NCBI GenBank assembly: GCA_028718785.1
Contig: JAQULB010000007.1
Location: 1 to 32,499, forward strand
Length of the DNA stretch: 32,499 bases
Reading direction: 5' to 3'
DNA from: Minisyncoccota bacterium
GTDB taxonomy: Bacteria > Patescibacteriota > Minisyncoccia > Minisyncoccales > CG1-02-41-26
The first letter of the stretch is position 1; every line of letters starts with the position of its first letter. The notes beneath the pieces are model-generated. The model ran no database searches and was not told the DNA's origin. It was given only the letters and a program-made list of their open reading frames with translations. This document shows, one piece after another, positions 210 through 32,499 of this stretch. The translations under genes were made by a program, and so were the position numbers.

Positions 210-332
210 TGACCTAAGCATCATCTTTCCAGGAAATTCCTGGCCGGAGTTAGCACCCACCAACTTCCGCCAAAGGCGAAATGGGGTTGCTGCAGGGTCA
301 TAGGGCCGTTCCCTTGCCTGCTCTTGATAACA
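210..332 (-). promoter_or_regulatory. SAM-I (S-box) riboswitch aptamer
   Basis: Minus strand reads GTTATCAAGAGCAGGCAAGGGAACGGCCCTATGACCCTGCAGCAACC...GGTGCTAACTCC...GGAAAGATGATGC, matching S-box conserved blocks (ATCAAGAG, GGCCCTATGA, GCAACC, GGTGCTAA.TCC, GAAAGATGA). Confidence 0.93.
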
Positions 333-460
333 AAACTATTCAATTAAGAACTACTTAAAATATACCAAATTAAAAACCGATGTCAATAGCCCTTTATTAA
401 AAAGTGTGTCAAAGTTAGCCGATCGGCACAGTTTGACACACTTGCAATAAATGATTTTGA

Positions 461-1296: not shown

Positions 1297-1302
1297 TAAA
1301 TC

Positions 1303-1396
1303 AACAAGAAGCTCGAGACAAATCCGCCGTATGGGGAAAGTCCGTAAGGGCTACCGAGCGTTCTGACCGCCCATTAATTGGGCGGTTATTTTGTTT
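1303..1396 (+). ncRNA. Structured small RNA candidate next to a DUF3800 gene (possible DUF3800-associated RNA motif)
   Basis: Closing stem GAAGCTCG (1308-1315)/CGAGCgTTC (1355-1363); hairpin TCCgCC-GTAT-GGGGA (1323-1337); hairpin GTCC-GTAA-GGGC with GNRA loop (1340-1351); terminator ACCGCCCA/TGGGCGGT (1366-1386) followed by TATTTTGTTTTC. Confidence 0.6.
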
Positions 1397-31098: not shown

Positions 31099-31172
31099 GG
31101 GCGATTAGCTCAGTTGGTTAGAGCATTCCTCTGATAAGGGAAAGGTCCGTGGTTCGAATCCACGATCGCCCA
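31099..31172 (+). tRNA. tRNA-Ile (GAT anticodon)
   Basis: GGGCGAT...CTGATAAG anticodon arm...GGTTCGAATCC...ATCGCCC A; CCA not encoded. Confidence 0.97.
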
Positions 31173-31186
31173 CCGTAAAAATTTAA

Positions 31187-31259
31187 GGGCCCGTGGCTCA
31201 GTTGGTAGAGCGCCTCATTTGCAATGAGGAGGTCAGCGGTCCGAATCCGCTCGGGTCCA
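31187..31259 (+). tRNA. tRNA-Ala (TGC anticodon)
   Basis: GGGCCCG...TTTGCAA...GGTCCGAATCC...CGGGTCC A; has the G3:U70 pair. Confidence 0.97.
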
Positions 31260-31263
31260 CATA

Positions 31264-31356: not shown

Positions 31357-31463
31357 ACAAAAGCAAAATAAGACGAGCCTAGGCCAAGATTTTGGGCTCT
31401 TTGGCCAATACCCGTAAAGTTAAAATCCAAATTTCAGATTTCAACCTTCATCGACAAAATTAG

Positions 31464-31594
31464 AATAGAAATGATCCATGGACAGCTTCCGCTACCCATG
31501 CCTTGTTACGACTTCGTCCTGGTTACTGAACCCGCCGTAGAACCATAAAAATGGCGCTTCGGGCGTTCCCAGCTTCCCTGACGTGACGGGCGGT
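31464..31594 (-). rRNA. rrs: 16S rRNA 3' exon (helices 44-45 and 3' tail)
   Basis: Minus strand ACCGCCCGTCACGTC...GAAGTCGTAACAAGGCATGGGTAGCGGAAGCTGTCCATGGATCATTTCTATT. Confidence 0.95.
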
Positions 31595-32499
31595 ATTGGG
31601 ATCAAAAACTTTTTATTTTATTGTCCCACACCACTGGGCGAACGGTTTTCCCGTACCCTAGCGGTTTCCAACCGATGTTTCTTGCCTAAAACTCTCATTG
31701 CCTCTTGTAGCTTTTTAATTTCGTTAACGCCTTTTTTAGTAAGATGTTGTCCCTTTTTTCTTTTTTCCACAATTTTCTTAAAAAGACAAAACCGTTTTGC
31801 CTGCTTGGCTTGCAACGGATTCTTTTCAAAAAATGGAATAAGAATTTCTGAAACTTCATCAAACCGGCTTACCTTGAATTTAACATGAGGATACCAACCG
31901 TATCGCTCATATTTACACTCATAAATTTTACCGCAACCAATAGTTTCTTTTATTCTGTGCAGAATTTCTTTGTCATCATCTCTGAGTTCAATAGAAAATT
32001 CTGGACGAACTAAAACTTTGTTTTTCATGCAGTCGTCTTTATAAATGCTAACCCAAAAGCTTCCCTCGCCGTCAACGAAACCAGCCACATATTGAGGATG
32101 GAGTTTTTTGATCGGTTGAATTCGTTCCTTCCTCGCTTTGGAGCGAGTACTATGAACTCTGCTGACTTCTTGCAATTGCATAAAATTTAAATTGCTTTAA
32201 ACTTTTTTACTGGTGTGGACTAGCCACAGTTTAATCATAAACTGTCCAGTAACAAATGCAAAATCTCGCTGGGTCACTAAACAAACTTTCTTCTCTATCT
32301 CGATGCTTCTACATTTAACAAGATATAATTTAAGGATAGCTTCTCCATGTACTCGCAGGATCGCCATCTTGCTAAACCACAACAAACATTCAAGCTAAAG
32401 AATGCTACTTTCGCCCTTCATCTTGCCCCTCACGAGACAAAACTGCGATTTCGCTTTTGGAAATCCTTAATTTCCCAAGTTGGATTTTAACCAACTAAT
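31595..32499 (-). other. Intervening sequence (putative group I-like intron) in 16S rRNA, truncated by the window edge
   Basis: 16S homology stops just 5' of ACCGCCCGTC and does not resume before the window end; the insert carries a LAGLIDADG ORF. Confidence 0.75.
31618..32181 (-). CDS. LAGLIDADG homing endonuclease (single-motif type)
   Basis: YVAGFVDGEGSFWVSI motif; PEFSIELRDDDKEILHRIKETIGCGKIY. Confidence 0.94.
   Translation of the reverse strand: MQLQEVSRVHSTRSKARKERIQPIKKLHPQYVAGFVDGEGSFWVSIYKDDCMKNKVLVRPEFSIELRDDDKEILHRIKETIGCGKIYECKYERYGWYPHVKFKVSRFDEVSEILIPFFEKNPLQAKQAKRFCLFKKIVEKRKKGQHLTKKGVNEIKKLQEAMRVLGKKHRLETARVRENRSPSGVGQ

Follow-up and report, generated by a model that had tools for sequence, protein, structure and literature searches.

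Few segments of bacterial rRNA are as strongly conserved as the anti-Shine-Dalgarno (anti-SD) core. In the 32,499-nt stretch analyzed here (hereafter the window, which is the entire contig C7 of the 841 kb, 18-contig MAG G000), the 3' tail of the 16S rRNA carries TTTCT in place of that core. This raises the question of whether the tail belongs to a functional rRNA and, if so, how the mRNAs of this organism are recognized.

The 16S rRNA 3' tail and its surroundings

Read on the minus strand from 31512 to 31457, the locus runs GTCGTAACAAGG CATGGGTAGC GGAA GCTGTCCATG GATCA TTTCTATTCTAATTT, and the mature 16S 3' end would presumably be ...GAUCAUUUCU(N). The absence of CCTCC after helix 45, which the original prediction had pointed out, was confirmed, and no CCTCC was present in the next ~225 nt past TTTCT in transcript sense. 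Tails that keep CCTCC in genomes of the class read CCTCCTTTCTA at the core; the window tail TTTCTATTCTA can be aligned in two ways, either with TTCTA retained and CCTCC substituted or with CCTCC deleted. The Rfam bacterial 16S model gave no match in the genome, because just ~130 nt of 16S are present in the MAG. The features of the locus and of the rest of the window are collected in Table 1.

Table 1. Features located in the window, with strand and supporting evidence
Feature	Position	Strand	Evidence
16S rRNA gene 3' exon (E. coli ~1396 to 3' end)	31463..31594	-	16S signature sequences at 31595 and 31514; alignment with intron-less relatives; full-length 16S with same tail in family members
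Helix 45, 10 bp, GGAA tetraloop	31477..31500	-	sequence; covariation, 24 sequences
Conserved GATCA, directly 3' of helix 45	31472..31476	-	sequence; genus and family comparison
TTTCT in place of anti-SD core CCTCC	31467..31471	-	sequence; genus, family and order comparison
Group II intron interrupting 16S, 5' end beyond contig	31595..32499	-	Rfam RF02001 at 32278-32439, RF01998 at 32125-32206; same element in G001
Intron-encoded LAGLIDADG endonuclease ORF, 187 aa	31618..32181	-	Pfam PF00961, 5.4e-21
tRNA-Ile(GAT), convergent to 16S	31099..31174	+	ARAGORN
tRNA-Ala(TGC), convergent to 16S	31187..31260	+	ARAGORN
SAM riboswitch aptamer	218..333	-	Rfam, 77 bits
DUF3800-II RNA motif	1301..1368	+	

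Across 24 sequences (23 from the order and one canonical-tailed), helix 45 showed 97.9% standard pairs vs. 77.3% when shuffled, 46 double-sided changes vs. 17.6, and a covariation of 0.554 vs. 0.183, with slid registers reaching at most 0.092. This strong covariation therefore indicates an rRNA under selection; together with the conserved tail, it upholds the earlier claim that helix 45 is intact, with compensatory changes, in a functional rather than a decayed rRNA.

The intron, which the original prediction overlooked, interrupts the 16S upstream of the 3' exon, and the contig ends inside it. Its insertion lies just before the decoding-region ACCGCCCGTC; a different-looking insert close to the same 16S place was observed in G011, G014, and G020. 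The convergent tRNA-Ile/tRNA-Ala arrangement is also found in the genus-mate G001, and since other family members have tRNAs on the same strand as the 16S, an inversion of the pair in this genus is probable. The window contains no 23S after the 16S and tRNA pair. Elsewhere, a minus-strand ORF (1351-1812), for which no Pfam match was found, overlaps the DUF3800-II motif with its end.

Extent of the anti-SD loss

Helix 45 could be detected in 10 genomes of the family, and every one of them has TTTCT at the same place; four contain a full-length 16S (1340-1414 bits, model positions 1-1533). Because G001 combines the same tail as the window, TTTCTATTC, with a different but compensated helix 45, and because all ten family genomes agree, the TTTCT tail is more than a product of chance. 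Relatives sharing this tail include one Candidatus Paceibacterota MAG and one Candidatus Gribaldobacteria MAG, which places the organism in the Patescibacteria/CPR.

The order was surveyed with a helix 45 pattern that neither requires nor excludes CCTCC, and matches were obtained in 123 of 247 genomes. Among these 123 genomes, no native tail contained CCTCC, the nearest being CCTCA in G035, G062, and G067. The comparison of related 16S 3' ends that the original prediction had proposed thus came out in its favor, on an order-wide scale that it had not recognized: tails without the anti-SD span order genomes from 35 families, are A/T-rich, and vary by family (TTTATTT, TTTTTTT, ATTAATT, CTACATT). 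Two canonical tails in the order (G155:C43 and G176:C33) look like contamination, since they follow a helix 45 of another, foreign type and G155 also has a native copy.

For the class, an even sample of 387 genomes yielded helix 45 in 263, of which 97 had a CCTCCT tail, none of them from the order studied here. Tails without CCTCC were found in families outside the order as well, which suggests several losses of the anti-SD within the class. In one genome of the CCTCC-bearing family f52, a tail of the type of family f43 was seen (G442:C15:37-92), probably representing contamination of that MAG.

Shine-Dalgarno use and the start signal

Use of the SD motif was surveyed in ORFs of 120 aa or longer, taking the first ATG as the start in place of measured starts, by comparing leaders with shuffled leaders in four family members, one further order genome, and three classmates. 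A 50 kb stretch of E. coli served as positive control and behaved as such, with weak SD motifs at 43.6% vs. 11.7% in shuffled leaders and a duplex energy difference of -1.23 kcal/mol. In codon-typical genes of the genome under study (n=519), strong SD motifs were present at 1.3% vs. 0.4% shuffled and weak ones at 5.4% vs. 3.6%; the duplex energy of their leaders with a canonical tail equaled that of shuffled leaders (difference +0.03 kcal/mol), and no pairing with the genome's own tail was seen (difference +0.31 kcal/mol). The small excess of strong motifs possibly reflects older acquisitions. Within the window, GGAGG or AGGAG was upstream of 0 of 27 genes, in agreement with the lack of GGAGG-like motifs reported for the starts first inspected. 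Overall, the SD-independent initiation put forward in the original prediction is well supported, as codon-typical genes pair with neither the canonical nor the own tail and the E. coli control is positive. The classmate G478 keeps CCTCC yet is as SD-scarce as the genomes without it, and SD use was therefore probably scarce before the tail eroded; the order of events would be scarcity of SD use first and erosion of the anti-SD later.

The genome-wide search for AGGAGG enrichment, named at the outset as a possible refutation, gave a divided answer: very little in codon-typical genes, and a real signal in a class of atypical genes that had gone unnoticed. Approximately 48 genes with a textbook SD (AAGGAGG) are scattered over contigs C1-C16 of G000 (e.g., C1:48772-50274, C2:157147-157590, C16:278-727). 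Strong SD motifs precede 19% of the codon-atypical fifth of genes vs. 2.2% when shuffled (odds ratio 17, p=5e-13), and the SD sites of atypical genes peak 5-9 nt before the ATG. The products include short unknown proteins, putative lipoproteins, a response regulator, a NUDIX protein, and an OMP decarboxylase-like protein whose gene adjoins that of a phosphoribosyltransferase. Within pieces of four relatives, homologues were found for 1 of 40 SD-marked proteins (80-300 aa) vs. 38% of the others (p=4e-7); conversely, the genome under study contains homologues for 0 of 9 SD-marked genes of G001 vs. 62 of its 70 others (p=1e-7). Given this atypical codon usage and the near absence of homologues in relatives, the simplest reading is that the SD-marked genes were recently acquired from SD-using bacteria by horizontal transfer. 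Contamination by whole contigs was excluded as their source, as the genes lie on 12 of the 18 contigs, mostly singly. A phage origin was also considered: of 10 genes tested, five had no Pfam or PHROGs match, the rest belonged to ordinary cellular families, and no viral hallmarks were found.

The only strong start signal found in native genes is a U at position -1, present at 65% of native starts (n=470) vs. 34% in the background and 28% at internal ATGs; in the SD-marked genes it falls to 17% (p=5e-5). U-1 is also strong in the CCTCC-keeping G478 (77%) and weak in G192 (32%), a member of the same order, and therefore is not a direct consequence of the anti-SD loss. The start codon is where the least structure is predicted (-2.1 vs. 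roughly -4.3 kcal/mol at other positions); relative to shuffled sequences the value is only -0.14, and this low predicted structure follows largely from A/T richness. The genome encodes a short S1-domain protein (275 aa), and the rpsA model gave S1-domain matches throughout, with zero above the cut-off. A single tRNA-Met was identified by ARAGORN in the genome.

Combined, these results indicate that the tail is very probably part of a functional 16S rRNA whose anti-SD was lost by descent across the order, and that native mRNAs are recognized without tail pairing. Most likely, the 30S subunit would load on A/U-rich, weakly structured leaders, possibly with help from the short S1-like protein, and the start would be fixed by the initiator tRNA on AUG, with U at -1 favoring this choice through possible pairing to A37 of that tRNA. 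Such extended pairing between U-1 and A37 of the initiator tRNA is known from chloroplast and bacterial work. A broader version of this reading can be offered tentatively: an entire class within the Patescibacteria may initiate mainly without the SD, guided by an extended UAUG (U-1 with initiator tRNA A37), with the unused anti-SD decaying repeatedly and SD motifs found mainly on recent acquisitions, hence serving as a marker of horizontal acquisition.

Among the alternatives, native mRNAs that are mostly leaderless could have replaced SD use. TATAAT-like hexamers do occur near the starts of unit-leading genes, with 37 of 179 TANAAT matches within 10 nt; however, these hexamers are spread over a wide range of distances, as far as ~35 nt, and the same start context is seen in downstream genes that closely follow another gene (142 of 533), which makes this account unlikely. 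It is highly improbable that the tail constitutes a new anti-SD (UUUCU) pairing with AGAAA-like leaders. Although UUUCU does not vary among the 10 family genomes and leaders are A-rich (AGAA at 14-16% vs. 10% shuffled), AGAAA itself reaches just 5.5% vs. 4.3% shuffled, own-tail energies relative to shuffled leaders are +0.31 in G000, -0.16 in G014, and +0.11 in G020, and the tails of other families are quite different. More generally, a variant but working anti-SD/SD pair was rejected, as own-tail pairing is no better than that of shuffled leaders.

The ~48 SD-bearing genes might instead be read by a second type of ribosome carrying another 16S copy with CCUCC. No such copy was found in the 841 kb MAG by pattern, DNA similarity, or rRNA signature sequences, as the original prediction would have it; this negative result is strong but not absolute, because the MAG contains neither the 23S nor most of the 16S body, the sole 16S piece being the 3' fragment. 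That gap and the existence of a genuine group of genes with well-spaced SD sites favor two ribosome types, but there is no native CCTCC tail in the 123 order genomes, the two canonical tails have a foreign-looking helix 45, and the SD-marked genes are strain-specific and codon-atypical rather than a conserved regulon, leaving this account very doubtful. An assembly error, a decayed 16S copy, or a foreign contig, to which the fragmentary 16S at a contig end might point, is ruled out for practical purposes by the conservation of the same tail in independent assemblies, including family members with full-length 16S, and by the helix 45 covariation.

Relation to known systems

The loss of the anti-SD and of SD use as such is already known, single CPR genomes included. 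The anti-SD-less bacteria of category iv (PMC10783764) have a CCUCC-free tail behind helix 45 and few SD motifs, and the CPR genomes tabulated there comprise Absconditabacteria SR1, Campbellbacteria, Wolfebacteria, and Peregrinibacteria. The genome studied here resembles them in its lack of CCUCC, intact helix 45, scarce tail-mRNA pairing, and a variant common to close relatives; the difference is that those lineages are represented by a single or few genomes each, whereas here the loss is order-wide, in genomes of 35 families, and SD motifs are restricted to strain-specific genes. In Amin et al. (PMC6107228), 128 taxa were reported without a consensus anti-SD, likewise with an intact helix 45, a 13-nt tail without CCUCCU, and no matching SD; these are mostly Chryseobacterium and relatives, Mycoplasma, and Carsonella, and, as far as the accessible text goes, Patescibacteria are not named. 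No CPR-wide account of anti-SD loss was found in the openly accessible literature and, judged provisionally against that literature, the spread of the loss through a whole order, the strain-specific genes marked by an SD, and the preference for U at -1 appear to be new.

The order-wide loss in small genomes, beside CCTCC-keeping sister families, provides a natural experiment on the selection that acts on SD pairing and on its replacement. In practice, gene finders that score SD motifs will misplace starts in these genomes, and the presence of an SD can flag acquired genes here.

Bacteroidia (e.g., Flavobacterium johnsoniae; PMC6847099, PMC9976891) share SD-less mRNAs and A-rich, weakly structured leaders with this order, but they keep an anti-SD that is sequestered by bS21, bS18, and bS6, whereas here the sequence itself is gone; their strongest start signal is A-3, as opposed to U-1. 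A sequestered anti-SD of the Bacteroidia type was accordingly rejected, as CCUCC is not retained in the window or in the 10 family genomes. Additionally, bS21 (PF01165, E<=0.001, a short and weak model) was detected in 13 of the 41 genomes sampled from the order vs. 235 of 346 from the remainder of the class, which is suggestive of bS21 divergence in the order.
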